From positions 1 to 40,496 of the forward strand of contig JAETQI010000040.1 of assembly GCA_021770755.1 (NCBI GenBank): DNA of 40,496 bases, read 5' to 3'. Each line of letters starts with the position of its first letter. The stretch's first letter is position 1. This DNA comes from Lachnospiraceae bacterium. GTDB lineage: Bacteria; Bacillota; Clostridia; Lachnospirales; Lachnospiraceae. Both the position numbers and the translations under genes were made by a program. This document shows positions 1 to 16,950 of the stretch, piece by piece. Under the pieces are notes generated by a model. The model made no database searches. It had not been told where the DNA came from and saw only the letters and a program-made list of their open reading frames with translations.

Positions 1-255
1 CACGGTGCGGATGTTGTGGAGATGTACGGAGGCGACGAAGCCTTGTTTTATGACGGCGAGATCAACAGGAGAAAGATTGATATATCAAGCCGGACATTGA
101 AACAGGGCAACGTGTCGGAAATAAAGATCGGCGCGAAAGACTACTCGAAGAATAAAAGAGGACTTAATTTTGTTTTGTATGATAACGAGACGGAGGAAGT
201 GATCGACGCTGTCAGCTTCGACACACATGTGCCCGAATTTACCTGCAGCAGATAG
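1..255 (+). CDS. C-terminal fragment of ILEI-like domain protein (partial)
   Basis: The reading frame is open from the first base and stops at 253-255, so only the last 84 residues are visible. The end of the protein contains RGLNFVLYDNETEEVIDAVS followed by FDTH. This resembles the core of the interleukin-like EMT inducer (ILEI/FAM3) domain, where a 'RGxNxVxxDxxTGxVxDxxxFD' stretch forms a beta hairpin. In bacteria such domains are often appended to polysaccharide-cluster proteins, which would fit the glycan genes downstream. The stop lies 12 bases before the FkbH start, so it is probably part of the same operon. The enzyme or transporter domain it belongs to is outside the window. The domain call rests on pattern memory only. 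Confidence 0.5.
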   Translation, partial: HGADVVEMYGGDEALFYDGEINRRKIDISSRTLKQGNVSEIKIGAKDYSKNKRGLNFVLYDNETEEVIDAVSFDTHVPEFTCSR

Positions 256-267
256 GAGGATCAAAAG

Positions 268-1992
268 ATGTATACATTCAGAGAATTGCAAAAAGCGTCA
301 CGCCTGGACATCGATGGGAAAGAAATAAAGGTCGCTGTGTTAGGCAACTGCGCAACACAATTTTTTTCCAGCGCGGTACAGGGATATGCGAAACGATCCG
401 GTCTGAATGCCCTGGTATATGACGCGGATTATGACCAGATCGATGCACAGCTTCTGGATCAGCATTCCGAGGTTTATGCATTCGGTCCTGACAGTATTGT
501 CATCTGGCTGGCGACAGACAGACTTTATGAAGAATTTCTTGACGCGGATCTTGCCGCGCGGGAGCGCTTCGCGGAAAGCTGTATGGAGCGATTGGAGCGG
601 TACTGGCATCTGATCACGGCAAACTGCAATGCCAAGATCATACAGTTAAATTTCTCCGAGATCAATGACAAGGTGCTTGGGAATTATTCGTGCAAGGTGA
701 CATCCACGTTTACATACCAGATCAGAAAGCTGAATGGTCTGCTCGGGGAAGCCATGGCAGGCCAGAGCGCGGTCTATCCCGCAGACTTGTTATCTGTACA
801 GATCGAACTGGGACAAAACAGGTTTTATGATGCGCCGCTCTACTATAATGCCAAGATGACCGTATCGATTAATGCCCTGCCGTATATCGCGAAAGCTGTG
901 GCAGATGTGCTTTTGGCGCTTGACGGCAGGATCAAGAAATGTGTTGTCTGCGATCTGGACAACACCCTGTGGGGCGGTGTGATCGGTGACGACGGTCTGG
1001 GAGGCATCCACATCGGGGAACTCGGGCAGGGACATGCGTTCACCAATCTCCAAAGATGGCTGAAACAATTAAAGGAATGCGGCATTATTCTGGCGGTGTG
1101 CAGCAAGAATAACGAGGAAACTGCCAGGGAACCGTTTGAAAAGCATGAGGAAATGATCTTAGGGCTGGAAGACATATCATTGTTTGTCGCAAATTGGGAC
1201 GATAAAGCGTCCAATATCAAAATGATCCAGAAGAGCCTGAACATAGGAATGGATTCGATGATCTTCCTGGATGACAACCCGTTTGAACGCAATCTGGTAA
1301 GGGAGCTGATCCCCGGGATCACAGTGCCCGAGCTGCCGCAGGATCCGGCATTATATCTTGAATACCTTCAGAGCCAGAATTACTTTGAGACAGCATCCTT
1401 TGCGGGAGCGGGCGCGGACAGGACAAAACAGTATCAGGCTGAATTGGAACGCAGGAAACTGGAAAAGACCTTTGAATCCATTGACGGGTACCTCAGGAGC
1501 CTTGAAATGAAAGGTACGGCAAAGCCGTTTGAACCAGTGAGATTTGCAAGGATCGCACAGCTTACGCAGCGCTCAAACCAATTTAACCTCAGAACGATCC
1601 GGTATACGGAAAGTGATATCGAGCGGATTGCAGACGACGGGAATTATCTGACGCTCTATTATACGCTGAGAGACAGATTCGGCGATCATGGTCTGGTGTC
1701 TGTCGTGATCATGAAAAAGATCTCCGAAACCAGGCTTTTCGTCGATACATGGCTGATGAGCTGCCGGGTATTAAAAAGAGGCATGGAGGAATTTATCGTA
1801 AATGCTTTTGTGGACACTGCCGCAAAAAATGGCTTCGAATGGATCAGCGCCGAGTATATTCCGACACCCAAAAATAAGATGGTCGAGACAATATATGAAA
1901 CAATGGGATTTACATGCACAACAGATCACCACTACGAGTTGAAAGTGTCAGCGTATGTGAAAAAAAATAATTATATAACAATGGAGGATTAA
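268..1992 (+). CDS. FkbH-like HAD protein, probable glyceryl-ACP synthase
   Basis: This 574-residue protein has the FkbH layout: an N-terminal BF1531-like region (about 1-215), a HAD catalytic core beginning with CDLDNTLWGGVIGDDG (Asp229, Asp231) and continuing through IILAVCSKNN and IFLDDNPFER, and a C-terminal GNAT-like region (about 400-570). Characterised FkbH proteins take 1,3-bisphosphoglycerate, remove the phosphate and load the glyceryl group on the phosphopantetheine of an ACP. An ACP gene follows 3 bases later, which supports that chemistry here. GGAGG at 256-260 sits 7 bases before the ATG. No methoxymalonyl enzymes (FkbG/I/K) are present, so glyceryl-ACP probably has another fate. 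The family call is firm; the exact substrate is inferred. Confidence 0.9.
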   Translation: MYTFRELQKASRLDIDGKEIKVAVLGNCATQFFSSAVQGYAKRSGLNALVYDADYDQIDAQLLDQHSEVYAFGPDSIVIWLATDRLYEEFLDADLAARERFAESCMERLERYWHLITANCNAKIIQLNFSEINDKVLGNYSCKVTSTFTYQIRKLNGLLGEAMAGQSAVYPADLLSVQIELGQNRFYDAPLYYNAKMTVSINALPYIAKAVADVLLALDGRIKKCVVCDLDNTLWGGVIGDDGLGGIHIGELGQGHAFTNLQRWLKQLKECGIILAVCSKNNEETAREPFEKHEEMILGLEDISLFVANWDDKASNIKMIQKSLNIGMDSMIFLDDNPFERNLVRELIPGITVPELPQDPALYLEYLQSQNYFETASFAGAGADRTKQYQAELERRKLEKTFESIDGYLRSLEMKGTAKPFEPVRFARIAQLTQRSNQFNLRTIRYTESDIERIADDGNYLTLYYTLRDRFGDHGLVSVVIMKKISETRLFVDTWLMSCRVLKRGMEEFIVNAFVDTAAKNGFEWISAEYIPTPKNKMVETIYETMGFTCTTDHHYELKVSAYVKKNNYITMED

Positions 1993-1995
1993 AAA

Positions 1996-2247
1996 ATGAG
2001 CAGGGAAGAAGTTTTGGAGAAAGTAACAGGCATTATCAGGGAGGTTTTTGAAAAGGACAGCATTGTCGTCAGTGAGACGACCACCGCTGCCGATGTCGAA
2101 GGCTGGGACAGCCTGACGCACCTGAATCTCGTAAATGAGATTGAAATGGAGTTTGACATACGTTTTATGCTCGCTGAGGTGCAGGGCTCTAAGAATGTCG
2201 GCGAGCTGATAACGGCGCTTATGAAGCATCTGGATGAAAAAAATTAA
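1996..2247 (+). CDS. acyl carrier protein
   Basis: An 83-residue acidic protein with the ACP signature GWDSLTHLNLV; Ser39 of the DSL motif is the expected phosphopantetheine site. GGAGG at 1983-1987 gives good spacing to the ATG. It directly follows the FkbH-like gene, the classic pairing for loading glycerate as a thioester. It is therefore probably a dedicated carrier rather than the fatty-acid ACP. Its stop overlaps the region just upstream of the lipoyl-carrier gene, consistent with co-translation. No phosphopantetheinyl transferase is encoded in this window, so it must rely on one elsewhere. Confidence 0.92.
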   Translation: MSREEVLEKVTGIIREVFEKDSIVVSETTTAADVEGWDSLTHLNLVNEIEMEFDIRFMLAEVQGSKNVGELITALMKHLDEKN

Positions 2248-2260
2248 CGGGGGTGATGCC

Positions 2261-2632
2261 ATGAAACTGGATGAGTTTCTGTTTTCTTCCGATCATATAT
2301 GGGTTAAAAAAGATGCGAATGATGTCCTGCTGGGCTTAAGCGATCATGCCCAGAAAAAGCTGAAAGTCATCATGTTCGTCAATCTGCCCGACGAAGGCTT
2401 TGAACTAAAGATCGGTGAAAAATTCGGGGATGTGGAGAGCGTAAAGACAGTATCCGATCTGGTTTCTCCAGTATCAGGCAGGGTGATCGGGATCAACCAG
2501 AGCATCGTCGACGAACCCGATGCGATCAATGAGTCGCCCTACGAGAGCTGGCTGCTGCGGGTCAGCGCCGATGCGCTTTCGGACAGTCTGATGAACCATG
2601 AGATGTACGAGGAATGTAAGGAGCGGTTATGA
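2261..2632 (+). CDS. GcvH-like lipoyl carrier protein
   Basis: A 123-residue protein of glycine-cleavage H-protein type. GDVESVKTVSDLVSPVSGRV contains the lipoylation site ESVK (Lys62), placed as in E. coli GcvH. The start at 2261 is preferred over the ATG at 2234 because family homology begins at MKLDEFLFSSDHIW and a G-rich ribosome site (ACGGGGG) precedes it. No glycine decarboxylase, aminomethyltransferase or 2-oxoacid dehydrogenase is encoded nearby. Neighbours instead supply its own E3 (next gene, 4-base overlap) and lipoate ligase. It is inferred to be a lipoyl carrier dedicated to this pathway, either a dithiol redox shuttle or an acyl carrier. Confidence 0.85.
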   Translation: MKLDEFLFSSDHIWVKKDANDVLLGLSDHAQKKLKVIMFVNLPDEGFELKIGEKFGDVESVKTVSDLVSPVSGRVIGINQSIVDEPDAINESPYESWLLRVSADALSDSLMNHEMYEECKERL

Positions 2633-3931
2633 TCTATGATGTAGCGATTATCGGAGGAGGTCCGGGCGGTTACGCCGCTGCGTTTGAGGCTGTCAGATCC
2701 GGGCTTTCGGCAATTCTTTTTGAAAAGGAACTGCTGGGGGGAACCTGCCTGAACAGAGGCTGTGTTCCCACGAAGTACCTGGCGCATGTTTCAACGCTGT
2801 GTACGGAATTATTACATGCTGGAGAATATGGTCTAAATGCGCAATACAGCGGAATCGATTTTCGCATGACGCAGCAGAAAAATCATGCAATTGTCGGGGA
2901 ACTCAGAAACGGTCTTGCACAAAAATTATCGGACTGCGGCGTATCCATCGTCAATGGCGAGGCTTCGCTGCTGGATAAAGATTCGATCCTGTGCGGAAAC
3001 GTTTTGTATCAAACACAAAATGTCATCATTGCAAGCGGTTCGGAACCGGTACGGTTAACGGGGCATATGTTGACGAGCGACGAGGTCTTAAAGCTGGATC
3101 GGATTCCCAACTCCATGTCAATAATAGGGGGGGGGTGGTATAGCTGCAGAGCTTGCTGAGATCTTCAACGGATTCGGCACAGATGTTTCCATCTATATCC
3201 GCGGCGATAGGATATTGAGAAGGTGGGATAAGGATATTGCTGTCGGCCTGACGCAGAGTATGAAAAAGCGCGGGATCAGGATCTATCCGAAGTGTGATGA
3301 AGACATCCTGAAAGGCGTGCGCGATGAAATAACCGTATCAGCGATCGGGAGAAAGCCTGTGCTTGACCACATGAACAAGTCCTTATTTTTGACAGATGGC
3401 AGCGGGGGAATTGTTACAGATCCATCAGGACAGACAAAGACAAAAGGCGTATATGCAATCGGGGATGTCGTATCGGGAAGTCCGATGCTTGCGCACACGG
3501 CTATGGAGCAGGGGATCAGGGCTGTATCTCACATCGTACATCAGAAAAGTGCCGGTGCGGGCGCCATCATTCGGTGCATTTATACCAAGCCTGAGATCGC
3601 CTGTGTGGGACTGACTATGGAAGGGGCACTTTTGCGGGGGAAAAATGCCATTGCAGCAAAACAGACAATGTATGCAAACGCAAGGACGCTGATCGTCACG
3701 AAGGAAAGAGGATTTATCAAAATTGTGGCGGAAAGAGGTACGCGCAGATTATTGGGCGCACAGTTAATGTGCGAGAGGGCGTCGGATCTTGTTTCCGAGC
3801 TGGCATCCGCGGTTCAGAACGGTTTTACGATAGATGACATGCTGGGAACCACAAGACCCCATCCGAGTTATGCGGAGGGCGTGTCAGAGGCTTTGGGCAG
3901 GGCAAGGGACGGGCTGGACAATGAAATATAG
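2629..3931 (+). CDS. lpdA: dihydrolipoamide dehydrogenase (E3), frameshifted at a G9 tract
   Basis: FAD/NAD disulfide oxidoreductase that would reoxidise or reduce the lipoyl carrier. Visible are the FAD loop IIGGGPGG, the redox disulfide GGTCLNRGCVPTK (Cys40, Cys45), the second FAD motif YAIGDV and the C-terminal dimer/catalytic stretch RPHPSYAEGVSEA. As sequenced the frame ends at TGA 3157-3159 (176 residues, lacking the NAD and dimer domains). With one G fewer in the run at 3127-3135, the frame reads SIIGGGGIAAELAEIFNG and continues to 3931, giving a 433-residue E3. The run encodes the glycine-rich NAD-binding loop itself. It could be a phase-off state, a real mutation or a homopolymer sequencing error. 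The start overlaps the lipoyl-carrier stop. Confidence 0.85.
3127..3135 (+). repeat. G9 homopolymer tract inside lpd
   Basis: Nine consecutive G residues lie within the NAD-binding loop codons of the dihydrolipoamide dehydrogenase gene. Eight G keep the full frame, nine give TGA at 3157, and ten would give an immediate TAG. The tract therefore acts as an on/off switch if it slips, and the sequenced state is off. Confidence 0.8.
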
Positions 3932-4628
3932 ATATATGCGGAGCAGTTCATTGAACCCCTACAAAAACCTTGCGCTCGAACAGGCATTGTTTCACTGTGT
4001 GCATGAGGAGGACGCGGTCTTCTTATTGTGGCAGAATGACAATACGATCGTAGCCGGAAGGAATCAGGATATAAGGACCGAGTGCAGGGTGGAGGCGTTT
4101 CTGCGGCAGGGAGGCACACTGGCACGGAGAAAGTCTGGGGGAGGCGCGGTATATCACGATCTTGGGAATCTGAACTATTCCATCATATGCCGCACAGCGT
4201 CTGCGGACGAATGCAGGTACGACGAGCTGATCTGCGGACTGATGAGGCAGTACGGTCTGGATGCGCGGTACAACGGACGCAACGATATCACCGTAGGCAC
4301 AAAAAAGATAAGCGGTAACGCCAGGTATTCCGCCGGCGAGATAACCTGCAGTCATGGGACGCTCCTCATTCAGTCGGATCTATCCGCCATGGAAAAGTTT
4401 TTGACGCCAGAGAGCGGCAAACTGGAGCGAAACCATATCAAAAGCGTGCGGGCAAGGGTTGCAAATCTGTCGGAATATATACCGCAGATCACCGTAGAAA
4501 CGGTTATTGGCGATCTCATAAGGCGATACCATATAAAAAGGCTGGAATCCCTGCCCCCGGAAAACGAATTGAAACGATGGGAATATTTTTTTGGAAATGA
4601 ACAATGGATCTATGGAGGTATGGAATGA
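3921..4628 (+). CDS. lipoate-protein ligase A family protein
   Basis: A 235-residue member of the biotin/lipoate ligase family, which activates lipoate (or octanoate) and attaches it to the lysine of lipoyl domains. RRKSGGGAVYHD (69-80) is the lipoate/adenylate loop and TVGTKKISGNARY carries the catalytic Lys129. It is shorter than E. coli LplA (338 residues) because the C-terminal accessory domain is absent, so it may be a transferase or need a partner. The ATG at 3921 is inside the end of lpd (11-base overlap), showing translational coupling. Its obvious substrate is the GcvH-like protein three genes up. It lies within the operon ending at 7446. Confidence 0.87.
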   Translation: MKYRYMRSSSLNPYKNLALEQALFHCVHEEDAVFLLWQNDNTIVAGRNQDIRTECRVEAFLRQGGTLARRKSGGGAVYHDLGNLNYSIICRTASADECRYDELICGLMRQYGLDARYNGRNDITVGTKKISGNARYSAGEITCSHGTLLIQSDLSAMEKFLTPESGKLERNHIKSVRARVANLSEYIPQITVETVIGDLIRRYHIKRLESLPPENELKRWEYFFGNEQWIYGGME

Positions 4629-5566
4629 ACATACTGTCAATGTCCGGATTTGTACCGGAACAGATATGTGATACGGTGCGGTTTACGCAGTACTTTGGAC
4701 AGCGTAATATTGCGTCGTATTGCGGATATGCGTCGGATTTTATCTCACAGGTTATGGGCGATCAAAATATAGACGGCGCCGTATATCCCAAATCCTGCGA
4801 CAGCAGCCGTATTATCGGCAGCTACCTGGAAATGTGCGGGAAATTCCTGCATCAGATCAATGTTCCGGCGGGAACGGATCATGCAGCGGTGATGTTTTTT
4901 GCAGAGGAGATCAGAAGGTATCAGCAGCAGATCGAAAAACATTATCATACAGCAATAAACAACATTGGTGAGCGGATCGCGCTGTTAAACAGGCGAAACA
5001 GAGAGATCTGCGAAATGTATGACGATCTTGACACGCTTGATTATTATGCATACATAGAGAATATACACAAGAACCTGCAGAGACCGCTTTGCGAGCAGAC
5101 GGTCGGGGACAGGCTCCGTCAGGTTCATCGGACAGGCAAGAGGGTTTTTGTGACGGGTTCTTTTTTGTCAGGCATAGAGATCGCCAGGATCATTGAGGAT
5201 AGAGGTCTTAAGATCGTGGGCGATGATCTTCCGGAATCCGGAAGATTATGCAGTTTTCCGGAAACAAAAGACACAGGAGATGTTTATCTCAATATATCAG
5301 CAAATATAATGGGACGGAGGTTATCCCCCACACAGGATCATTTTAACAGGATCCTGGAAGCCGATCTTGCGGAGATCAAAAGAAAGGAAGCAAAAGGCGT
5401 CATTATGGTGATCCAGAAATACTGCGAACCATATGAGTATCTGTATTCCATATATAAAGCCTATCTGGAAGCGCAGGATATTCCTGTGCTTAAGATCAGC
5501 CTGCTTCATTCCGAAGACACACAAAAGGCAGAACTGCAGATAGAAGCCTTTGCGGATATCATATAG
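4625..5566 (+). CDS. 2-hydroxyacyl-CoA dehydratase family subunit (HgdB/BcrC-like)
   Basis: A 313-residue subunit of the 2-hydroxyacyl-CoA dehydratase/benzoyl-CoA reductase D-component family. The C-terminal QKYCEPYEYLYSIYKAYLEA matches the family's 'KFCDPHxxDYPxLKxxLE' block with a cluster-ligand cysteine, followed by a degenerate QLRTRIEAF-like end (ELQIEAF). Further cysteines lie in SYCGYASDF and YPKSCDSSRI. Such subunits hold a [4Fe-4S] cluster and form a heterodimer that removes an alpha-hydroxyl through a ketyl radical. The start at 4625 overlaps the lipoate-ligase stop as ATGA, with GGAGG at 4615-4619. The next gene is the partner subunit. It is rather short and divergent, so the substrate may be unusual. 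Confidence 0.8.
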   Translation: MNILSMSGFVPEQICDTVRFTQYFGQRNIASYCGYASDFISQVMGDQNIDGAVYPKSCDSSRIIGSYLEMCGKFLHQINVPAGTDHAAVMFFAEEIRRYQQQIEKHYHTAINNIGERIALLNRRNREICEMYDDLDTLDYYAYIENIHKNLQRPLCEQTVGDRLRQVHRTGKRVFVTGSFLSGIEIARIIEDRGLKIVGDDLPESGRLCSFPETKDTGDVYLNISANIMGRRLSPTQDHFNRILEADLAEIKRKEAKGVIMVIQKYCEPYEYLYSIYKAYLEAQDIPVLKISLLHSEDTQKAELQIEAFADII

Positions 5567-5578
5567 GAGGACACTGCC

Positions 5579-6727
5579 ATGGCTCAGACAATCATAAGGA
5601 TTCAGACGAAACTGATGAAAGAGTACTACCAGTATTTTTCCAAGTACGCCAAGGGCGGACGGCCGGAAGGCAAGGTTGCCTGGATCACCGCGTTTGCACC
5701 GGTGGAAATATTGGAAGCGCTGGGAATTTCCTGCTACTATCCGGAAAGCTACGCAGCCGTGATCGCGGCAAGCAGCATGGAGCAGTCCCTGTTAAGCAAG
5801 AGCGAGGAATTAAACTTATCAAGGGACTGCTGCTCCTACTCATGCTGCATACAAGGATGCCTTGAATTGGAAGAAGGACCAAGAGGCGTACCGCCAAAGC
5901 CCGATATGCTGATCGCGACAAATAACCAGTGCAATACCCTTCCAAACTGGTGGAATATACTGGCGCACAGGTACAAAGTACCGCTGATCGTGATCGATTA
6001 TCCCGGAGACGGCGCAGACAGAAGGACCGCATATCACTATGTAACCGCCCAGCACAGAAACCTGATCACGGAGCTTGAAAGGCTCACCGGAAACAAGCTC
6101 CATATGGACAGGCTCGCGGAATTGGTTGAAAACAGCAGAAACAGCGTAAAAGCGTGGAAGTCCGTCATCCGCCATATGAAAGATAAGGAAGTCATACCAA
6201 CAGGGCTGTTCGATGACATTAATTTTCTCATTACGGCGAGATGCAGGCGTGAAACGTCGGAAATGTACACGATGCTTGAGGAGGAGCTAAGCAGGAGACC
6301 CCTGGCAAATCAGGAACTGCTTCCTGTGTTCTGGCTGGGCTATCCCCTCTGGTATCACGCTGACAGGTATCTGTCCTCCATACTGGAGGGATGCAGAGTA
6401 TCAGGTTCGAATTATATTACATGGTGGAATATTGACTACGCGGGTGAAGATCTGTTCGAATGCCTGTTTAACGCGTACAATGATACATTTTTAAATCTTT
6501 CCCAGAAAACCAGAAACGAACGTCTGGGCAGGCTCATACGGGAATCGGGCGCCAAAGCCGCAGTCACGCTCCGCAATAAGAGCTGCAAGTGCGATTTCGT
6601 GTCCGCCAGAAACATAGATATCCCGCAGGTCGAGATTGACATGGATATGATCGACCGAACCATCCTGGATGAGAAGGCTGCCCGGGACAGGATCAGCCTG
6701 GTCAGGGAAACGATATGTACCGGCTAG
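5579..6727 (+). CDS. 2-hydroxyacyl-CoA dehydratase family subunit (HgdA-like)
   Basis: The 382-residue partner of the preceding subunit. The family block is visible in DCCSYSCCIQGCLELEEGP, then PDMLIATNNQCNTLPNWWN, then VPLIVIDYPGDG, as in 2-hydroxyglutaryl-, lactoyl- and phenyllactoyl-CoA dehydratases. The cysteines in these blocks are candidate [4Fe-4S] ligands. TAGGAGG (5565-5571) overlaps the previous stop and positions the ATG at 5579. The activator gene overlaps its 3' end by 13 bases. No CoA transferase or CoA ligase accompanies it, so the thioester substrate is likely delivered by the operon's ACP or lipoyl carrier. That last point is inference. Confidence 0.85.
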   Translation: MAQTIIRIQTKLMKEYYQYFSKYAKGGRPEGKVAWITAFAPVEILEALGISCYYPESYAAVIAASSMEQSLLSKSEELNLSRDCCSYSCCIQGCLELEEGPRGVPPKPDMLIATNNQCNTLPNWWNILAHRYKVPLIVIDYPGDGADRRTAYHYVTAQHRNLITELERLTGNKLHMDRLAELVENSRNSVKAWKSVIRHMKDKEVIPTGLFDDINFLITARCRRETSEMYTMLEEELSRRPLANQELLPVFWLGYPLWYHADRYLSSILEGCRVSGSNYITWWNIDYAGEDLFECLFNAYNDTFLNLSQKTRNERLGRLIRESGAKAAVTLRNKSCKCDFVSARNIDIPQVEIDMDMIDRTILDEKAARDRISLVRETICTG

Positions 6728-7446
6728 GAATCGATGTGGGTTCAACATACACAAAATACTGTGTGTTGTCCTGCAGGAACAAGATCGAAGACTGCTTCAC
6801 CGAGAGGACACCCATAAGGCAGAGAGAATACTTTGAGGGCAAAAAGGGGGACTTTCCCAGCGCTTCCTGCGGCTACGGCAAGGCAAATGTCCCTTTTGCG
6901 AAAAAGTCGGTCAACGAATTGACCGCGCTGGCAAAGGGGAGTCATTATGTCTGTCCGGAAGTGAGCGTCGTGCTGGACATCGGAGGGCAGGATACGAAGA
7001 TCATCTGCCATGAAAACGGAACGCTGAAAAACTTTTATATCAATGACAGATGCGCCGCGGGCAGCGGAATGTTTCTGATCAATACATTGCGCATGCTGGA
7101 GATAGATTTTGACGATATGGATCTGCAAGACATCCGGTCTGAGATCAGGCTGTCGTCGGCATGCGCCGTGTTTGCACAGACCGAGATCGTAGGGCTGATT
7201 GCCGCGAACGTGCCCGCAAAAGATATTGCCGGCGCAGTTGTCGGGCACATACTGCAGCAGTCCAGGAGCCTGCTGCGCAAAGTAAATGCCGAAAACGGCA
7301 TATTGCTCTCAGGGGGGCTGACACAGATCAGGGGATTTCGGGAAATGGCAGACAGGATCTTGGAAACCAGATGTATCATAGGACCGTATGCGAGATATAT
7401 GTCCGCGATAGGGTGTGCTTTGAGCCTTCCTTCATGTGGCGATTAG
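6715..7446 (+). CDS. 2-hydroxyacyl dehydratase activator ATPase (HgdC/BadF-BcrA family)
   Basis: A 243-residue ASKHA-fold ATPase. GIDVGSTYTKYCV (phosphate 1), VLDIGGQDTK (phosphate 2) and LLSGGLTQIRG (adenosine) are visible. Cys113 in NDRCAAGSGMF and Cys150 in SSACAVFAQTEI match the two cysteines per monomer that hold one [4Fe-4S] cluster between two HgdC subunits. These activators use ATP to inject a low-potential electron into the dehydratase to start radical dehydration. All key residues are present, so the system looks functional. It is the last gene of the operon, with an intrinsic terminator overlapping its stop codon. Confidence 0.92.
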   Translation: MYRLGIDVGSTYTKYCVLSCRNKIEDCFTERTPIRQREYFEGKKGDFPSASCGYGKANVPFAKKSVNELTALAKGSHYVCPEVSVVLDIGGQDTKIICHENGTLKNFYINDRCAAGSGMFLINTLRMLEIDFDDMDLQDIRSEIRLSSACAVFAQTEIVGLIAANVPAKDIAGAVVGHILQQSRSLLRKVNAENGILLSGGLTQIRGFREMADRILETRCIIGPYARYMSAIGCALSLPSCGD

Positions 7447-7475
7447 ACAACTCAAAAAAGGGGTTGTCTTTTTTT
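7445..7475 (+). terminator. intrinsic terminator after dehydratase operon
   Basis: AGACAAC (7445-7451) pairs with GTTGTCT (7463-7469) across an A-rich loop and runs into seven T (7469-7475). It ends the operon that begins upstream of 268. Confidence 0.85.
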
Positions 7476-7477
7476 AT

Positions 7478-7562
7478 GCGCAGACCCGTGCAGAGGAAAT
7501 AAGCCGCCAGTGCGGCGCACGGGTCGCGCGGGAGTAGGGGAAGAAGGCTCTTCCCTACTCGA
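7478..7562. repeat. two-hairpin dispersed repeat, copy 1
   Basis: Outer stem GACCCGTGC (7483-7491) pairs with GCACGGGTC (7517-7525). Inside it are AGAGGAAA and a small stem GCCGC/GCGGC. A second hairpin follows: GAGTAGGG (7532-7539) with CCCTACTC (7553-7560), extended by AAGA/TCTT. The same plan recurs at 21276-21362 and 31154-31252 with different but compensating bases in the stems. Confidence 0.75.
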
Positions 7563-7563
7563 T

Positions 7564-7606
7564 TGCACACGGGCACCCAGGGGAAGAAGGCTCTTCCCTA
7601 CTCGAC
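7564..7606. repeat. truncated copy of the two-hairpin repeat
   Basis: It carries the left arm ACACGGGCACCCAG joined directly to GGGGAAGAAGGCTCTTCCCT and ACTCG, so the central part of the element is deleted. It lies in tandem immediately after copy 1. The rest of the interval to 7744 is AT-rich; TATAAT at 7697-7702 is a possible -10 box without a good -35. Confidence 0.6.
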
Positions 7607-7744
7607 TTTTCAAAATAATAGTAGCAAAAGTGCACAAAATAATCACTGAAAACCTAAATAAACTTAAAAAATATAGCTAAAAAAAAGAAACTAATCTATA
7701 ATGGCAATTGGTCGCATGAGATTGGGAAAGATGATACAGTGATT

Positions 7745-9553
7745 ATGGGAAAGTTCAGAAATTATATCAATAAGAAGTTCATAGAAAGCAATCCGGTCAT
7801 AGGCGAAGTGTTGTCGTATCAAAACAGGATTTATGGCAGACGACGCAGTGTATTTTCGCGTGCCGCATTGGATCTGCAGCTATATATAAAATATGTCCTG
7901 CTCCGTCGTCACCTGCTTGAAGAACAGGCAAAAAATAGAAATAAGGCAGTCTATCCGGAATCACAGATGAATCAGAAACAAGAGCTGGAGGCGATCATGG
8001 ATCGGCTGGATCAAAACGATACCGTTACATTTGATATGTGGGGTGTGTTGTTTTATGAGATCCTGAATGAGCAGCAGTTAGCTGCCCTGGCAGAAGCAAG
8101 ACTGCATTATATCGGATTGTCTGACATGGAGAATATGAAGAAATCGCTGTCATCAGAGCAGATACAATGCATCGATGACATCAGGCTGGACTTTATCATG
8201 CAGAATGATCGGATGAATGACTTGATGATGAGCGCATTACAGCATGGGAAAAAAATATATGTTTACAATAATTCTGACTATAGTGACCAGTTTGCGCAGA
8301 GAGTATTAGCGCGCTATTCCTGTTGTGCCGGGTTGACACCGATCTTGCAGGCTGGCATGCATGTCACAAATAAAATATGCAATATGACAGATGTGATGTA
8401 CAAAGATGTCAGGATACAGGGAGAGCGATATCGTCCATTCTATCATATCAATGCAGTTACAGCCTTGTATAATCAGATCGTAAATATAAAATTTCATAGT
8501 CAGGATAAGGAATATCCATTGTTTTATGAATATGGCTTTGCTTACGGCGGTATACTGACCTGCGGATTCTGTCAGTTTCTGGACAGACTGGCAGAGAGTG
8601 AGGGAGCGGACAAATTGATCTTTGTCGCGCGGGACGGGGATATCATGGAAAAGGTCTACAAGAAATATTTTGGCCATATAGATACTTCCTATCTGGTATT
8701 TTCACGGTTTGCTTCCTATGAGCTGATCTTTGACGATTTTCCGGAGGAATATATCGATAAAAATATCAAACCGAGGATCGGAAGGCAGGGGACAGACAAT
8801 TCCGTCAAAAAGATTTTGCAGGAATGCGGGTTGGAACGCTTAGAGAAATACCTTGATGAAGAAGGTATTTCCCCAAATGAACCATTGCATGATGAGAACT
8901 ACTTAAAGATCAAATCCCTTATCTTAAGGCACAGATCCGATCTTAGTGAAATTTTTGCGGAGACGGGCAATGCTTCCAGGGAATATATCATGGGAAAAAT
9001 AGGGACAAGCAAAAAAGTATGTATTGTGGATCTTGGCTGGCACGGCAAATCAATCGTGTATCTGAAACATTTGTGTGAAAAGTGCTACGGGTGGGATGGC
9101 GAGGTGATGGGTGCCCTGCTGGGGGCTTCGGAGAATGATGTCGTACAAGATCATATCAGGACAGGACTGATCCATACGTATGCATTTGAGAACGAATACT
9201 GGAGGAGTATGGGAACAAGGGTCGGAAAACGTATGGAATATAAGGAATGTATCTGTTTGGAGGCGCTGTTCTCTTCTACGAGCAGCACACTGCTAAGATA
9301 TACATACAATGCGGACGGGCATATTTCGTTTGTGTACGGGAAAAAGAATAAGAATATAGACAAAATAGCGCAGATTCATGAAGGGGTGTTGGATTTTGCC
9401 GGACAGTTTATGCCGTTGATCCAAAAATATAACCTGAAAATAACAGAGAGAGACGCGTACACGCCGGTGGATTCGGTTATGAGAAATCCTGAATATCAGG
9501 ATCTGATTTATCGCGGGTATTACGAAGAACCAAATGCAATGAATGGGTTTTAA
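7745..9553 (+). CDS. COG5610-type HAD-like protein, degenerate catalytic site
   Basis: A 602-residue protein homologous to the next gene product. Shared C-terminal blocks include LFYEYGFAYGGILTCGF and DKLIFVARDGDIMEKVY, typical of the COG5610 'predicted HAD hydrolase' family found in polysaccharide clusters. Its HAD motif I reads TFDMWGVLFYE: the nucleophile Asp remains but the usual Thr is Val. No GDxxxxD motif IV is apparent where the paralogue has VGDNYAVD. It may be a non-catalytic partner or a glycosyltransferase-associated protein. The ATG at 7745 is preferred over the GTG at 7739; the ribosome site is weak (GGGAAAG). It is the first gene of the AT-rich glycan cluster. Confidence 0.7.
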   Translation: MGKFRNYINKKFIESNPVIGEVLSYQNRIYGRRRSVFSRAALDLQLYIKYVLLRRHLLEEQAKNRNKAVYPESQMNQKQELEAIMDRLDQNDTVTFDMWGVLFYEILNEQQLAALAEARLHYIGLSDMENMKKSLSSEQIQCIDDIRLDFIMQNDRMNDLMMSALQHGKKIYVYNNSDYSDQFAQRVLARYSCCAGLTPILQAGMHVTNKICNMTDVMYKDVRIQGERYRPFYHINAVTALYNQIVNIKFHSQDKEYPLFYEYGFAYGGILTCGFCQFLDRLAESEGADKLIFVARDGDIMEKVYKKYFGHIDTSYLVFSRFASYELIFDDFPEEYIDKNIKPRIGRQGTDNSVKKILQECGLERLEKYLDEEGISPNEPLHDENYLKIKSLILRHRSDLSEIFAETGNASREYIMGKIGTSKKVCIVDLGWHGKSIVYLKHLCEKCYGWDGEVMGALLGASENDVVQDHIRTGLIHTYAFENEYWRSMGTRVGKRMEYKECICLEALFSSTSSTLLRYTYNADGHISFVYGKKNKNIDKIAQIHEGVLDFAGQFMPLIQKYNLKITERDAYTPVDSVMRNPEYQDLIYRGYYEEPNAMNGF

Positions 9554-9566
9554 GAAGGGGAGAGCA

Positions 9567-11657
9567 ATGGGAATATCTTTTGCGGGGACGAGATTACATA
9601 GGATATTTGTTGAAAGAAATAAATATGTTGAGCAGGAATACCATAATTATATTCAGGTCAATTCAAAGGATGGAAGGCGCCGCAGGGCAATGGAGTGGTT
9701 GTTTCTGATGAGAGTGAATATGGCGTATTTTTTGCTGAACAGAAGAAGCAAAACGCCGGTTATCAATGGAAAAGGGCAGACAAGGTCGATAGAAAAACTG
9801 CCATATTTAGAGGGTGCGGAGTCAGGACTATATAAGAGAAAAAAGGAAATTCATTTTGCAAATGATCTTATGCAATATGATGTGATTTCGTTTGATATCT
9901 TTGACACGCTGATTTTGCGTCCCTTTGCGAAACCTGCAGATCTGTTTATGGTCGTGGGAAATAAATTAAAGATCATTGATTTCATGCGGATACGCATGGA
10001 AGCGGAGAAAGCCGCAAGAGATGAGGCAATGGTTCTGAAAGGAAACCATGAAGTGACAATTAATGATATTTATGAGAAAGTGAGCAGGAAAACAGGAATC
10101 GATGTACAAAAGGGAGTGGAAACGGAACTGGAGACAGAGATGGAGTTCTGCTTTGCCAATCCGTATATGAAGCGAGTGTTTGATCTTCTGAAAGATCAGG
10201 GAAAAAAGATCATTTTAACATCCGATATGTATATTCCGGCCGGGCAGATGGAAAGACTGCTGAAATCATGTGGATATGAGGGGTACCGCGGGCTGTATGT
10301 TTCGTGCGACCATGAATGCAATAAAAGGAGCGGGGGATTATATCAAACAATCCTGCACGAGTCAGGTGGCCAGGTCAAAATAGTGCATGTCGGTGATAAT
10401 TATGCTGTAGATGTAACCAGCGCCAGCAAAAATGGTTTCGATACACGTTATTATAAGAACTGCCACGATATCGGAAATCCATACAGGGCAGATAATATGT
10501 CAGAGTTGGTGGGGTCGTTTTACGCAGGAATTGTCAATACCCATTTGCACAATGGGAGCAGACAGTACAGTCCATATTATGAATACGGATATATTTATGG
10601 CGGGTTGTATGTGACAGGATTTTGTAACTGGATCCATAAAAAGGCAAAAGAAGAAAATGTGGATAAGATCCTTTTTCTATCGAGGGATGGGGATATTTAC
10701 CAGAAGGTATTCAATGAATTGTATGGGGACATACCCAATGAGTATGTTTATTGGTCACGGATCGCAAATATCAAGTATACGATTGAAAATCAAAGGGAGG
10801 ATTTTCTGCTCCGGATCATCCGGCATAATTCCACGGCAGTCATTCCACGTACATATGGCGATGTCCTGACTTCCATATCGTTGCAAAAGCTTATACCATA
10901 TTTGAAAGAAGCATCTATGGATCGGGATACACTTTTTACGATCGAGAAAGTCAAAGCCTTTGAAAAATTTTTGTTAGGTCATTGGGAAATGATTGAACAG
11001 ATATACAATGAAGAGACGTTAGAACTTAAGAAGATCATGGAAAAGATATTATCGGGATGTAAAACCATTGCCGTGGTTGATGTTGGCTGGGGCGGAACGG
11101 GGCCATTGGGTATTAAGTATCTGATAGAAGAAAAGTGGCAGTCTGACTGCCGGGTCAAATGTTATTTAGCGGCAAGCAGGGATGTTAATCATGTGAAAAA
11201 TCTAAATGAGCTTATGAACAATGAGATAGAGGCGTATATGTTTTCGCAGTTAGAAAACAGACAATTATATAGTTTTCACGCAAATACGAATAAAGGATTG
11301 AACAATATTTTTTTCGAATTGTTTACCCAGGCGCGGCACCCAAGCTTTGGCGGTATCTGCAAAGATGGAAAATACGAATTTGATATCCCGGAAGTAGAAA
11401 ACTATGAAATGATCAGAGAGATACATCAGGGAATTATGGAATTTGCCAGAGATTATTATGGGAGGACGGATCAGTCGCGTTATTTGCGAAATATTTCAGG
11501 AACCGATGCATATGCAGCTTTTTGCATGATCATAAAGGATTTAAAGTTTGTGAAGACTTTTTTTAAGGATTTTACATATGCAAGAAGTATTTCAGGAAAT
11601 ATAAGTAAACAAAAAATAGAGAAAATAAGCGAGATTATTAATAAAGTACACGCTTAA
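9567..11657 (+). CDS. COG5610-type HAD hydrolase-like protein
   Basis: A 696-residue protein with HAD motif I VISFDIFDTLILRPF, motif II region KIILTSDMYIP and motif IV VHVGDNYAVDV in the N-terminal half. A second conserved half contains YYEYGYIYGGLYVTGF and DKILFLSRDGDIYQKVF. Members of this family sit in capsule and O-antigen loci; their reaction is not established, though phosphatase or glycan-transfer roles are plausible. The start at 9567 follows AGAAGGGGAG at 9553-9562 and lies just after the stop of the preceding paralogue. In contrast to that protein, its HAD motifs are intact. The two probably act together. Confidence 0.75.
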   Translation: MGISFAGTRLHRIFVERNKYVEQEYHNYIQVNSKDGRRRRAMEWLFLMRVNMAYFLLNRRSKTPVINGKGQTRSIEKLPYLEGAESGLYKRKKEIHFANDLMQYDVISFDIFDTLILRPFAKPADLFMVVGNKLKIIDFMRIRMEAEKAARDEAMVLKGNHEVTINDIYEKVSRKTGIDVQKGVETELETEMEFCFANPYMKRVFDLLKDQGKKIILTSDMYIPAGQMERLLKSCGYEGYRGLYVSCDHECNKRSGGLYQTILHESGGQVKIVHVGDNYAVDVTSASKNGFDTRYYKNCHDIGNPYRADNMSELVGSFYAGIVNTHLHNGSRQYSPYYEYGYIYGGLYVTGFCNWIHKKAKEENVDKILFLSRDGDIYQKVFNELYGDIPNEYVYWSRIANIKYTIENQREDFLLRIIRHNSTAVIPRTYGDVLTSISLQKLIPYLKEASMDRDTLFTIEKVKAFEKFLLGHWEMIEQIYNEETLELKKIMEKILSGCKTIAVVDVGWGGTGPLGIKYLIEEKWQSDCRVKCYLAASRDVNHVKNLNELMNNEIEAYMFSQLENRQLYSFHANTNKGLNNIFFELFTQARHPSFGGICKDGKYEFDIPEVENYEMIREIHQGIMEFARDYYGRTDQSRYLRNISGTDAYAAFCMIIKDLKFVKTFFKDFTYARSISGNISKQKIEKISEIINKVHA

Positions 11658-11671
11658 CTGGGAGAGAAAAC

Positions 11672-13225
11672 ATGTTGCTATTTCATGCGGTGAGCACCTA
11701 TCAATTATTGCTATTAGTTGAATATAAAATTAAGTATCATGTGAACGACAAAGCTGTTTTATTAATTCCGGACTCCCTTGTACAGAAATATTCTAAATAC
11801 AGTAAACTGACAAAATATTTTGATGATATAGTGCTTTATGAGATTAAGAGTCCTGAGCGCAGGAGCAGATCGATCAAGGAAGATACGCGGGATTATTTTG
11901 AAGCAGTATTAAGGAAACAGGATTATCTCATAACTGATTTTGATGAGATTTATGTCGGTTGCGCACATTATTATTTTGGAATTTATCTGGCGTCAAATGA
12001 TATTCCGTTTACGTTTTTTGAAGATGCGGCAGGAATGCTGAGCAGACCGGAAGTTTTGGTTGAAATCGAAGAAAAGTATCCAGTGAAAAGGGAGTATAAT
12101 CTACAGTATGGTCTGTACGATGGTACATGCCCGTGTATTAAGAAAGTAGTCTGTAATAAGAACGCACAATGTAAGGAGTTTGATCATGTTGAACATTTTG
12201 ATGTGGTGGAAGAGCTGTTAAATCTGCCTGAGACCGACAGAGAGTGGTTAAAAAGATTTTTTACGGATCTGGAGGTGCTTGATATCAGGCAAAATGCGAT
12301 TTTATTTTTAACCCAGCATTTTGCCAATCTGCAGATACTGTCTTTCGAACAGCACATATTGATCTATCAGACGGTGTTTGACTATTTCTTTGAGGGAAAG
12401 GAAGTTGTTATCAAACCGCATCCCAATGATATTATGTATTATGGAAAACTTTTTCCGCAGTATCAGATCATAAGGGACATTTTTCCGTCAGAATTTCTGC
12501 CGATCATGTTCACAAACAAGCCTGACATGATCGCGACGATCAGTTCAACTGCGATCAATAATCTGTACCGGTATTTTGCGAAAAGTTTTTCCCTGGGAAC
12601 ACAGTACGAGAAGGATTTTCCCTATACACACAGATATTATATGGCAGTGCAGATCATGAAAAGGCTTGGGATCAGTATAGGGCAGGAACATGGCATTGGC
12701 ACAAATGATGCGCTGATCAAGGCTTTGCTGCAGATCGAATCGGAAAAAGGATATGCTGCCAATCCGGATCTTCGCCACGTCAGATGCTATATTGTGGATG
12801 ACATACAAAAGCAGGAGGAGCATACGAGGGAATCTATCATTAAGATGATGGAGCAGATGGAAGAAGAAAGCATAATAATATTCATTAATTCCCAGACGGA
12901 CTATTGTTTTTATGATCTGTATCATAAATCACTCTGGGAAAATATCGTGCCCGTCTGCATCCACAAGAAAAGGACGAGGGAAGAAGATTTTTACTCGGAT
13001 GTAAATCCCGAGATCCTATATCTATATTCAAAAAGCAAGGAGATACGCGGTATGGCAGCAGATTATGAGATGAACAAAAGTCTGACAAATAGTGGGTTGG
13101 AAATAGAGGTCCGGCGTTTATCGCCAGAGGAAAGGCGCATAAAAGTGCTCGAAGGGCTGCTTGAGGCGACAGAAAAGAGACTTTTGCATTACATACAGAT
13201 TGTTGAAAATGATACAAAAGCATAG
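11672..13225 (+). CDS. polysialyltransferase-like glycosyltransferase
   Basis: A 517-residue protein resembling the sialyl/polysialyltransferase-type GT-B families (GT38/GT52-like). Visible signatures are FFEDAAGM (about 116-122, acceptor loop), VVIKPHPND (246-253, the HP motif that binds CMP-sugar) and TISSTAINNLY (289-299, the S motif). About 140 further residues follow (380-517) that I do not recognise. Two CMP-sugar synthetases encoded downstream would supply its donor. It probably adds an acidic CMP-activated sugar to a surface polymer at the cytoplasmic membrane face. Ribosome site GGGAGAG at 11660-11666. Confidence 0.7.
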   Translation: MLLFHAVSTYQLLLLVEYKIKYHVNDKAVLLIPDSLVQKYSKYSKLTKYFDDIVLYEIKSPERRSRSIKEDTRDYFEAVLRKQDYLITDFDEIYVGCAHYYFGIYLASNDIPFTFFEDAAGMLSRPEVLVEIEEKYPVKREYNLQYGLYDGTCPCIKKVVCNKNAQCKEFDHVEHFDVVEELLNLPETDREWLKRFFTDLEVLDIRQNAILFLTQHFANLQILSFEQHILIYQTVFDYFFEGKEVVIKPHPNDIMYYGKLFPQYQIIRDIFPSEFLPIMFTNKPDMIATISSTAINNLYRYFAKSFSLGTQYEKDFPYTHRYYMAVQIMKRLGISIGQEHGIGTNDALIKALLQIESEKGYAANPDLRHVRCYIVDDIQKQEEHTRESIIKMMEQMEEESIIIFINSQTDYCFYDLYHKSLWENIVPVCIHKKRTREEDFYSDVNPEILYLYSKSKEIRGMAADYEMNKSLTNSGLEIEVRRLSPEERRIKVLEGLLEATEKRLLHYIQIVENDTKA

Positions 13226-13237
13226 AAGAGGCAGATT

Positions 13238-14845
13238 ATGGGTAAGATAAAACTTCTTGACTGCACGCTGCGTGACGGCGGATATATTAATAATTGGAAC
13301 TTTGGCAGAAAAAACATAAAGAATATATGCAGCAGCCTTGCGGAAGCGCGGATTGATGTTGTTGAAGTGGGATTTCTCACCAATAAGGCACATTCGGAAG
13401 AAGATGCTCTGTATTGCAGTTGTGAGGAGATCGCACAGACCGCCAATATCGATAAAAATAAAACTGAGATCGCTGCCATGATCGCGATTGGAGAAACAGA
13501 GATGGATCCGATATCCCTGCCGAAAGCAGATAAGGCGGTTTTGGATATTGTCAGGATCACATTTCACCATACACGACAGGAAATAGAAAAAGCAGTGGCA
13601 TATGCAGGCTGTCTAATGCAAAAAGGATACAAAGTCTGTATGCAGCCTGTCGGAACGACCATTTATAAGGACAGGGAGTTATTGGAATTAATCGAGATCG
13701 TTAACAAACTAAAGCCATATGCATTTTATCTTGTTGACACGCTGGGGACATTGTATAAAAAAGAATTATTGCGATTCATTTACCTGATTGATAACAACCT
13801 GGAACGGAGTATCAAACTGGGTTTTCATTCCCATAATAATCTTCAGATGTCATTCTCAAATGCGCAGTTAATCTTAGAATATTCGTCGGCGAGAGAATTT
13901 TTGATTGACTGCTCGCTCTTTGGGATGGGGCGCGGAGCCGGAAACCTGTGCACGGAGTTGATCGCGCAGTACATGAACTCGGAAGGAATTGCAGCTTACA
14001 ACATGATGCCGATCGTTGCAGCGATCGACAACTATATCAATCCGATCCATCTGACAAAAACATGGGGATATTCGGCACAATACTATATTGCGGCAATTCA
14101 TAACTGTCATCCAAATTACGCCTCCTACCTGATGAACAAACAGACATTAAACATGAACCAGATCGATCTGATCCTGAAAAATATCGCAAGTGAAGATAAA
14201 CATATTTTTAAAAGAGATGTGATCGAGCATGCGTACTTTCGGTTTCAGAACCGTGATATTGATGATGTGGAAAGCATCAACAGACTGAGCGAAGAACTGG
14301 TGGGGAGCGGAAAGGATGTATTGGTATTAGCATCCGGAAAGACAATATTGGACTACAAAGAAAGGATCAGGGCATTTGCGGGGACGGGGCATGTGATCGT
14401 TATAACGATCAACGGAAGTTATGCAGACTATCCTGGTGATTATATGTTTCTGAGCAACCAGAAAAGGATGTATGATATTGATTATGAGGAATATGGGGGA
14501 AAGATCATCATGACATCAAATCTTCCAAAGGTAAATTCGGAATGCATATATGTTGATTACGATAAACTGGCGGATTATGAATATGAAGAAGCTGACAATG
14601 CGGGGCTGATGCTGCTGCGTCTGCTGGAAAGAGTAGGTGTTGCCAGAGTATATATAGCAGGGTTTGACGGATTTGACCAAAGTGTAAATAGAAATTACTA
14701 CGATAAAGATCTGATCAACAATGTTTTACCGGATGTTGTGGAAATGAAAAATGCGTCTATCCGCAGTCAGTTAAAAAAGATCATGGAAAAGCTGGATGTT
14801 ATCTTTCTGACACCAAGCAAATATCTGATTGAGGAAATGTCATGA
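13238..14845 (+). CDS. DRE-TIM metallolyase (aldolase) fused to a C-terminal domain
   Basis: The 535-residue protein starts with LLDCTLRDGGYINNW (Arg12, Asp13), the DRE-TIM signature, and has the metal-binding GFHSHNNLQMS (His197, His199). This is the HMGL-like aldolase family that includes 4-hydroxy-2-oxovalerate aldolase. From about residue 330 a second domain begins (VLVLASGKTILDYKERI) resembling MptE/DUF115-type domains. With a phosphatase and two cytidylyltransferases immediately downstream, it is a candidate for making a 2-keto-3-deoxy acid by pyruvate aldol addition. It would replace the KdsA/NeuB-type synthase, which is missing here. The gene overlaps the HAD gene by 4 bases. Confidence 0.75.
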   Translation: MGKIKLLDCTLRDGGYINNWNFGRKNIKNICSSLAEARIDVVEVGFLTNKAHSEEDALYCSCEEIAQTANIDKNKTEIAAMIAIGETEMDPISLPKADKAVLDIVRITFHHTRQEIEKAVAYAGCLMQKGYKVCMQPVGTTIYKDRELLELIEIVNKLKPYAFYLVDTLGTLYKKELLRFIYLIDNNLERSIKLGFHSHNNLQMSFSNAQLILEYSSAREFLIDCSLFGMGRGAGNLCTELIAQYMNSEGIAAYNMMPIVAAIDNYINPIHLTKTWGYSAQYYIAAIHNCHPNYASYLMNKQTLNMNQIDLILKNIASEDKHIFKRDVIEHAYFRFQNRDIDDVESINRLSEELVGSGKDVLVLASGKTILDYKERIRAFAGTGHVIVITINGSYADYPGDYMFLSNQKRMYDIDYEEYGGKIIMTSNLPKVNSECIYVDYDKLADYEYEEADNAGLMLLRLLERVGVARVYIAGFDGFDQSVNRNYYDKDLINNVLPDVVEMKNASIRSQLKKIMEKLDVIFLTPSKYLIEEMS

Positions 14846-16948: not shown

Positions 16949-16950
16949 AA

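Follow-up and report, generated by a model that had tools for sequence, protein, structure and literature searches.

The contig JAETQI010000040.1 of a Lachnospiraceae bacterium (assembly GCA_021770755.1), a stretch of 40,496 nucleotides referred to here as the window, carries near its left end a compact gene cassette (positions 268 to 7,446) in which an FkbH-like enzyme and an acyl carrier protein (ACP) stand together with a lipoyl carrier system and a two-subunit, ATP-activated radical dehydratase. What this cassette most likely produces is a modified, carrier-bound C3 acyl group for a surface glycan. The best explanation, to which a probability of about 0.4 is assigned, is that the dehydratase would remove the alpha-hydroxyl of glyceryl-ACP by radical chemistry, that thiols would end the reaction by reduction to 3-hydroxypropionyl-ACP, and that an MBOAT acyltransferase would pass the acyl group to the glycan. 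An earlier note on this DNA had coupled glyceryl-ACP synthesis to the dehydratase and left the lipoyl genes unused. The association of FkbH with the dehydratase is real; the lipoyl arm suggests another, more unusual kind of chemistry.

All eight functions that had been named for this run were found, in the order given, in overlapping or abutting genes on the + strand that end at a terminator-like hairpin. The first gene encodes a full-length FkbH-like protein with N-terminal and HAD domains (268..1992; PF21211 (FkbH_N) 3.4e-65, TIGR01686 3.2e-88), which is expected to form glyceryl-S-ACP from 1,3-bisphosphoglycerate, and it adjoins a stand-alone ACP with an attachment-serine motif (1996..2247; PF00550 3.6e-6). 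An H-protein-like (GcvH-like) lipoyl carrier follows, with the lipoyl Lys71 in the motif ESVK (2234..2632; PF01597 1e-30), and then dihydrolipoyl dehydrogenase (E3) in two pieces, an N-terminal one with the redox-disulfide motif GGTCLNRGC (2629..3159; TIGR01350 1.1e-43) and a C-terminal one (3215..3931; TIGR01350 5.8e-46), the frame being broken at a G9 tract (3127..3135, + strand) that is possibly a phase-variation tract. The lipoate-protein ligase (~3921..4628, start picked by eye; PF21948 6.6e-57) comprises the catalytic part only (TIGR00545 profile positions 2-241 of 328), against frames of 330 aa in two relatives (L066, L069), and it may need a partner or act by transfer. The run closes with the small, HadC/HgdB-like dehydratase subunit (4625..5566; PF06050 2.5e-27, best PDB match 3o3m_B), the large, substrate-binding, HadB-like subunit (5579..6727; PF06050 3.9e-39, best PDB match 3o3m) and an ATP-dependent, HgdC/HadI-like activase with two cluster cysteines (6715..7446; TIGR00241 1.4e-50, 4eht_A 5.9e-35). 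The hairpin (7445..7469, + strand) has nine pairs and a T-rich tail running into a T run; such sites number 13 in 8 kb versus 7.0 in shuffled sequence.

The cassette is more than a chance assembly because other genomes have the same set of genes, a search for the neighbourhood, as the earlier note had proposed, having found orthologous modules in 38 further genomes. A close homologue of the large subunit is present in two of 392 genomes of the same order, namely the window genome (G000) and G358 (61% identity), the remaining matches being 25-31% identical, and in two of 398 genomes of the phylum. The G358 cassette has the same genes; its ACP comes at the end, its E3 frame is uninterrupted, and the whole is preceded by an MBOAT gene. 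A contig scan with a two-sequence alignment yielded 39 loci (L044-L082) with best segments 57-66% identical, a lower bound given that the scan relies on two short peptide patterns. With the window these make 40 loci; one of them (L062) is the same record as the G358 locus (L041), two (L045, L046) come from one genome, and with the window genome the total is 39 genomes. The sources are mostly metagenome-assembled genomes (MAGs) labelled Clostridia, Lachnospiraceae and similar, many from gut or rumen by record title, together with three MAGs labelled Candidatus Gastranaerophilales (L051, L052, L056) and two strain-named records without a MAG label, Eubacterium plexicaudatum ASF492 (L057) and bacterium 1XD42-1 (L061). 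In the former, a member of the altered Schaedler flora, one run holds FkbH and ACP, the three lipoyl genes (H-protein, E3, ligase), both dehydratase subunits and the activase, with a short ligase frame of 176 aa.

Both subunits and the activase occur in all 39 loci (the large subunit by construction), the H-protein in 33, E3 in 29, the ligase in 28, FkbH and ACP in 20, an MBOAT gene in 12 and SGNH-like genes in 11; with the window, the H-protein reaches 34 of 40 and FkbH 21 of 40. These counts are minima, as contig ends cut many flanks, and missing downstream genes are uninformative where the right flank stops within 550 bases of the activase gene (L052, L054, L063, L065, L080). The lipoyl genes sit either before or after the dehydratase genes, depending on the locus, and uninterrupted E3 frames occur among the relatives. 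Five rumen-type loci (L073, L077, L078, L080, L081) have an immediately upstream gene in common, a rubrerythrin in L073, and four of the five share a further gene that is flavodoxin-like in L077; such neighbours might protect or feed an oxygen-sensitive enzyme.

The link drawn earlier from FkbH and ACP to a HAD-type dehydratase fared well. In 21 of 40 loci an FkbH gene is found at a distance of 1.2-8.4 kb from that of the large subunit, with FkbH and ACP within 9 kb, and all 21 ACP rows carry the motif [DE]SL. FkbH is present in 17 of 18 tested module genomes; in the order it reaches E 1e-40 in 68 of 385 genomes and passes the cut-off in 65, for a nominal Fisher p of 2e-10 with two shared genomes excluded; the 18, of 39 module genomes, were picked before the result was known. 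Among them FkbH stands in the locus in seven and elsewhere in the genome in 10 of the other 11. Moreover, the module-linked FkbHs fall into at least three groups of the FkbH tree, mixed with those of module-free genomes. Thirteen unlinked FkbH loci from module genomes have an ACP nearby in 10 cases and an MBOAT gene in eight: both are present in L097, L099, L100 and L103-L107 (the ACP of L107 seen as L083), ACP only in L101 and L108, and neither in L102 and L109, while L098 ends inside FkbH. The FkbHs of the eight loci with both genes are 57-63% identical to the nearest module-linked FkbH, and those of the L074 genome (L101, L102, L109) just 30-38%. Among 20 FkbH loci of module-free genomes (L110-L129), an ACP is nearby in 19, an SGNH-like gene in six and a DltB-like MBOAT in 13. 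FkbH with ACP, often with MBOAT, thus also occurs without the module, which looks like an add-on that would modify what FkbH has made. As a whole, the partnership of FkbH with the dehydratase module is well supported by genomics.

The lipoyl genes accompany the dehydratase more often than FkbH does. The lipoyl Lys is present in 34 of 34 H-protein rows, and the E3 redox motif in 29 of 29 distinct rows besides the window (two end at a contig edge) as well as in the window's N-terminal piece. Of the 39 module genomes, 36 have a strong H-protein match (17 of 18 and 19 of 21 in two sets). The module itself encodes the protein in 33; the remaining six comprise four genomes with glycine cleavage and two in which the locus stops at a contig edge. 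In the window genome the cassette H-protein is the sole GCV_H match, and there is no match to the glycine-cleavage P-protein (GDC-P) over the cut-off. The best matches to lipoamide dehydrogenase there are the two E3 pieces (2.6e-53, 1.1e-42), the next (2.9e-34) lies within an 885-aa frame, and none reaches the family cut-off.

A clear GDC-P (E < 1e-30) is found in just five of the 39 module genomes, one match (G394) being a contig-edge piece, with partial matches just over the cut-off in two others (G802, G804). Four of these five modules lack their own H-protein (L051, L052, L056, L058) and one has both (L072). In three of the four the genome's H-protein stands beside GDC-P, while in G394, the L052 genome, no clear H-protein was found. 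Among the 34 genomes without a clear GDC-P, the module H-protein is missing only in L063 and L065, where both contigs end at the activase (nominal Fisher p 9e-4 for the complementarity, by locus). In the large-subunit tree L051, L052 and L056 nest in an H-protein-carrying clade and L058 lies elsewhere, so that the H-protein-less pattern arose about twice, unless the Gastranaerophilales-labelled bins are misbinned. This can be read as a module that would require an H-protein and bring its own copy when the cell has none. E3 connects thiols and NAD(H) only, and its conservation with the other lipoyl genes implies a net NAD(H)-linked redox step, which argues against plain redox-neutral dehydration.

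The dehydratase itself has changed. The predicted models (pLDDT 86.7 for the large subunit, 90 for the small) are both closest to 2-hydroxyisocaproyl-CoA dehydratase 3o3m, where CoA is coenzyme A, and PF06050 is matched in both subunits, as expected of an HGD-D fold heterodimer closest to HadB and HadC. In an alignment of 40 module rows (duplicate L062 dropped) with 28 canonical large subunits from the same order, the cluster ligands Cys85, Cys118 and Cys336 are present in 40 of 40 and 28 of 28 rows, and Glu56 and Tyr87 are conserved in all. The site of HadB Ser37, which with Glu55 we take to be the HadB catalytic pair, is Ala in 31 and Ser in nine of the module rows versus Ser in 28 of 28 canonical rows, so the Ser/Glu pair is mostly lost. 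Three further cysteines, Cys90, Cys222 and Cys338, the last only two residues from a cluster ligand, are invariant in the 40 module rows and present in none of the 28 canonical ones. The small subunit has invariant C33, C58 and C267 (28 rows), and in a separate alignment the placing of its N-terminal cluster ligands is uncertain. The activase retains the ATPase fold and its two cluster cysteines (positions 113 and 150 of the open reading frame (ORF), each in 39 of 40 rows, with one row gapped), and adds the module-specific Cys16 (39 of 40 versus 0 of 23) and Cys52 (40 of 40 versus 0 of 23). For BzdO, an excerpt of PMC11971306 describes the Tyr equivalent as contacting the thioester. Because fold and clusters fit HAD while one catalytic residue does not and a CoA substrate is doubtful, the enzyme is called here a probable new HAD-like subfamily, and not a 2-hydroxyacyl-CoA dehydratase.

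On the proposed mechanism, FkbH would first convert 1,3-bisphosphoglycerate to glyceryl-S-ACP, a step known for the FkbH family (PMC7489565, in the portion available). The activase, with ATP, would then put one electron into the two-subunit iron-sulfur dehydratase, a radical start known for the family and here proposed on ACP; the thioester would become a ketyl radical and expel the alpha-hydroxyl, leaving an enoxy radical. In known dehydratases, as partial text of PMC8473912 describes, the ketyl likewise expels hydroxide to give the enoxy radical, which loses a beta-proton while the electron is recycled. That reaction needs neither thiol nor NADH, and the conserved dihydrolipoyl/E3 system and the new cysteines suggest that here the enoxy radical would instead be reduced by thiols. 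Ribonucleotide reductase ends its deoxygenation in this manner, by thiol reduction of a substrate radical. In this new and third step, the radical would take hydrogen from the cysteines specific to the family, which the dedicated H-protein would recharge through its dihydrolipoyl arm; lipoate ligase would arm the H-protein and E3 would re-reduce it with NADH, for a net reaction of glyceryl-ACP + NADH to 3-hydroxypropionyl-ACP + H2O + NAD+. Finally, as gene context in part of the loci suggests, a DltB-like MBOAT would transfer the acyl group to an extracellular glycan. We infer substrate, product, thiol role, reductive outcome and glycan target from gene content, conservation, co-occurrence and residue changes. 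Taken together, it is tempting to suggest a new reaction class of the HAD/BCR superfamily, in which an ACP-bound alpha-hydroxyacyl group would be reductively dehydroxylated by ATP-activated radical chemistry, with hydrogen donated by a dihydrolipoyl H-protein and enzyme cysteines and the cycle closed by NADH and E3, and gut Clostridia would obtain 3-hydroxypropionyl groups for a phase-variable glycan on their surface; this full claim is tentative and falls short of even odds.

The decoration of a glycan, suggested earlier for the product, stood for part of the loci only, where DltB-like MBOAT genes occur. Two module-locus MBOATs were compared with solved structures, and DltB was the sole match (2e-19, 3e-16). 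Among the SGNH-like candidates, all 10 aligned sequences conserve a Gly-x-Ser motif and a His, with weak family matches (DUF1574 below the cut-off in two, AlgX at E 0.38 by profile) and matches of one protein to DltD that are likewise below the cut-off (0.015 and 0.03). Glycosyltransferases, nucleotide-sugar enzymes and a gene of the polysaccharide flippase type also lie near modules, as do unrelated genes.

Expression of the cassette may also be phase-variable via poly-G tracts. The window has tracts of nine (3127-3135, in E3), 10 (16235-16244, in a cytidylyltransferase gene) and 13 (17946-17958, in an acyltransferase-3 gene), so that all three of its G/C runs of at least 9 lie in positions 1-20000 and none in the rest (Poisson p 1.5e-4, for a stretch picked after the tracts were seen). 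Such runs number 22 in 589 kb of module loci, six in 151 kb of unlinked FkbH loci and three in 209 kb of FkbH loci of module-free genomes, versus two in 400 kb elsewhere in the window genome and none in 400 kb of E. plexicaudatum; the excess of module loci over these two pooled controls has a binomial p of 6e-7, from two genomes only. Among 28 runs of at least 8 in module loci, the G lies on the coding strand in 21, on the opposite strand in two and outside called genes in five. The tract-bearing genes vary by locus (E3, FkbH, HgdB, HgdC, MBOAT, SGNH-like), and broken frames lie at or beside a tract in three cases, the window E3, the HgdC of L051 (L051:11654) and the HgdB of L068 (L068:9247). 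In Campylobacter, the portion of PMC7099621 available mentions an fkbH-domain gene and a poly-G tract in the flagellar glycan region. Phase variation of this kind suits a surface structure and offers a benign cause for the broken E3, the alternative being an assembly error.

Several observations weigh against reductive dehydroxylation for a glycan. The window E3 is not intact in this assembly, where a frameshift at the G9 tract (3127) splits it into two ORFs. Of the 39 loci, 10 have no E3 and 11 no ligase; contig ends account for some (L063, L065, L067, L080), while they do not explain the absence of E3 in L050, L051, L055, L056 and probably L058, nor that of the ligase in L053 and L064, nor the absences in L051, L055 and L056. 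The Gastranaerophilales-labelled loci contribute three of the five modules in GDC-P genomes and their genes nest among Clostridia, possibly by horizontal transfer or misbinning, which weakens the complementarity argument. The extra Cys90, Cys222 and Cys338 could be structural or metal-binding instead. Local linkage of FkbH, seen in the 21 loci, fails in nine with a left flank of about 9 kb (in the eight of these genomes tested, FkbH is found elsewhere in 8 of 8, the ninth being L080), and the L058 genome, one exception of 18 tested, has the module, CoA-transferase III and glycine cleavage without FkbH. An MBOAT gene turns up in the examined flanks of just 12 of the 39 loci and the window has no recognised copy; the DltD-like label of the neighbouring SGNH-like genes, made by inspection and sub-cut-off matches, is tentative. 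Finally, the loci are not independent and the control genomes come from one order only, so the p-values are optimistic.

The strongest alternative is the route of the earlier note, redox-neutral dehydration of glyceryl-ACP to 3-hydroxyacryloyl-ACP, the enol of malonic semialdehyde-ACP, with the lipoyl genes serving otherwise. It would draw on a fold, cluster cysteines, Glu56 and activase that are those of 2-hydroxyacyl-CoA dehydratases, on a glyceryl group that is an alpha-hydroxyacyl group with a beta-hydrogen, and on the genomic tie of FkbH to the module. The same route leaves unexplained why H-protein (33 of 39 loci), E3 (29) and ligase (28) keep company with the dehydratase, and also why three invariant cysteines have been gained and the catalytic Ser lost in 31 of 40 rows. 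Among the gene clusters that loci share, nothing stood out as a partner enzyme acting on a malonic semialdehyde thioester, although no search was aimed at one. This route is held to be unlikely. The earlier interpretation as a whole is borne out in part. Somewhat less likely again is a role for the lipoyl arm as an acyl carrier in place of CoA, in which glyceryl would move from ACP to the dihydrolipoyl-H-protein, be dehydrated there and move on, while E3 keeps the arm reduced. A long lipoyl arm could reach into the deep CoA channel of the fold, as described for BzdO in an excerpt of PMC11971306, and both the absence of CoA-transferase III from 37 of 39 genomes and the module-encoded H-protein in 33 of 39 would agree with such a role. 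Phosphopantetheine on the ACP, however, is itself the thiol-bearing end of CoA and would be expected to enter the same channel, making a second carrier unnecessary, and no ACP-to-lipoyl transferase was recognised, although none was searched for.

A third alternative, judged improbable, has E3 and the lipoyl protein feeding electrons from NADH to the activase in place of ferredoxin or flavodoxin, the dehydratase reaction being ordinary. In its favour, the activase has the module-specific Cys16 and Cys52. Against it, dihydrolipoyl is a weak reductant for the activase cluster and a flavodoxin-like gene is already at hand in four rumen-type loci; moreover, in a known dehydratase one activation suffices for at least 1000 turnovers (PMC8473912, partial text), with no call for a dedicated lipoyl system. 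Last and very improbable is a module with a metabolic task of its own, its tie to FkbH being an indirect result of both being common in the same gut lineages, as the nine FkbH-less loci, the L058 genome, the rubrerythrin and flavodoxin-like neighbours of rumen-type loci and the many FkbH genomes of the order without the module (most of them) would allow, but against which stand the enrichment of FkbH in module genomes (17 of 18 versus 68 of 385), its place beside the module in at least three FkbH lineages and its presence elsewhere in 10 of the 11 tested genomes without a local copy.

Known functions were also considered and rejected. The opposite arrangement raised by the earlier note, dehydratase genes with CoA transferases and without FkbH and ACP, was looked for in part: CoA-transferase III is found in two of 39 genomes and never on module contigs, in a genome-wide search that took in neither other CoA-transferase families nor CoA ligases. 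Ordinary CoA-linked fermentation is rejected on that count. No CoA transferase or ligase is among the families listed (the first 25 of 91 and 25 of 70) for 125 neighbouring ORFs, a set limited to ORFs of at least 130 aa within 8 kb, with each shared cluster represented by a single member. Ordinary glycine cleavage is rejected on the 34 of 39 genomes without a clear GDC-P. The equivalent of BzdO His131, which lies three residues past the second cluster Cys (PMC11971306, partial text), is Leu121 in 40 of 40 rows, and class I benzoyl-CoA reductase is rejected. So is a benzoyl-CoA reductase/double-cubane (DCCP) enzyme, as BzdN Cys263 and Cys293, from the double-cubane cysteines given in the same excerpt, align with Pro and Ser in the window small subunit. 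Finally, five cassette proteins have no PADLOC match, and anti-phage defence is rejected.

Among known systems, the 2-hydroxyacyl-CoA dehydratases (HadBC/HadI, HgdAB/HgdC, LcdAB) share the two-subunit fold, the three large-subunit cluster cysteines, Glu56 and the two-Cys activase. The module differs from them in its three new invariant cysteines, in having mostly Ala for the catalytic Ser, in the low identity (25-31%) to canonical homologues of the order, in a shorter small subunit (313 aa versus 373 in 3o3m_B) and in being mostly without CoA-transferase III and tied to lipoyl H-protein, E3, ligase and FkbH/ACP. The glycine cleavage system has the same H-protein family, lipoyl Lys motif, E3 and lipoate ligase, whereas most module genomes (34 of 39) have no clear GDC-P and encode the H-protein with a radical dehydratase. 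Ribonucleotide reductase offers a mechanistic analogy only, the proposed carbonyl-alpha radical left after hydroxyl loss being reduced by an externally recharged dithiol; the protein is unrelated, and the module would use iron-sulfur ketyl chemistry. D-alanylation by Dlt likewise pairs a carrier protein with a DltB-like MBOAT, in part of the loci, with the SGNH-like proteins as tentative counterparts of DltD; FkbH would take the place of DltA, an enzyme type that was not searched for, and the acyl group would be a C3 hydroxyacid. In the FkbH glyceryl-ACP pathways (methoxymalonyl-ACP, the tetronate glycerate-utilisation operons), FkbH and a stand-alone ACP also feed glyceryl-tailoring enzymes, which in the part of PMC7489565 available are dehydrogenases with a methyltransferase, or act by acetylation and elimination, while the module would employ an ATP-activated radical enzyme; the sink there is a polyketide and here apparently a glycan. 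In the open-licence literature searched, where absence is not absence in print, no paper was found on a HAD dehydratase with a lipoyl H-protein, with E3 and ligase or with FkbH, on an FkbH-MBOAT glycan system, or on a 3-hydroxypropionyl ester of an exopolysaccharide.

Around the cassette, the window begins at a contig end, and the start of the cassette may have been lost at the left. A C-terminal frame piece cut by the contig start (1..255, + strand) has no Pfam or NCBIfam match of its own; over 60 aa it shares 47% identity (E 4e-12) with the C-terminal end of the gene preceding the L058 module (L058:468-1955), and it looks like the tail of a surface-protein-like gene (cluster c9, judged SGNH-like by eye only). 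After the cassette, positions 7739-19760 hold a glycan cluster with a polysialyltransferase-like gene, an HMGL-like aldolase, a HAD phosphatase, two cytidylyltransferases and an acyltransferase 3, together with two long paralogues (604 and 704 aa) that have no Pfam match. Elsewhere in the window genome there is a second, unrelated HGD-D pair with an activase (G000:C95:63372-66862, L043), which follows a gene that is ParA/CooC-like by eye, and two BadF-type activase domains lie in one 1480-aa open frame (G000:C117:29296-31005).

If the proposed chemistry is true, the 2-hydroxyacyl-CoA dehydratase family would leave fermentation and CoA chemistry for envelope biosynthesis, and the glycine-cleavage H-protein would gain a second job in genomes that have no glycine cleavage. 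Iron-sulfur ketyl chemistry and thiol-terminated deoxygenation would possibly be joined in one enzyme. Moreover, phase-variable acylation of the surfaces of gut commensals would bear on their recognition by phages and by the immune system.

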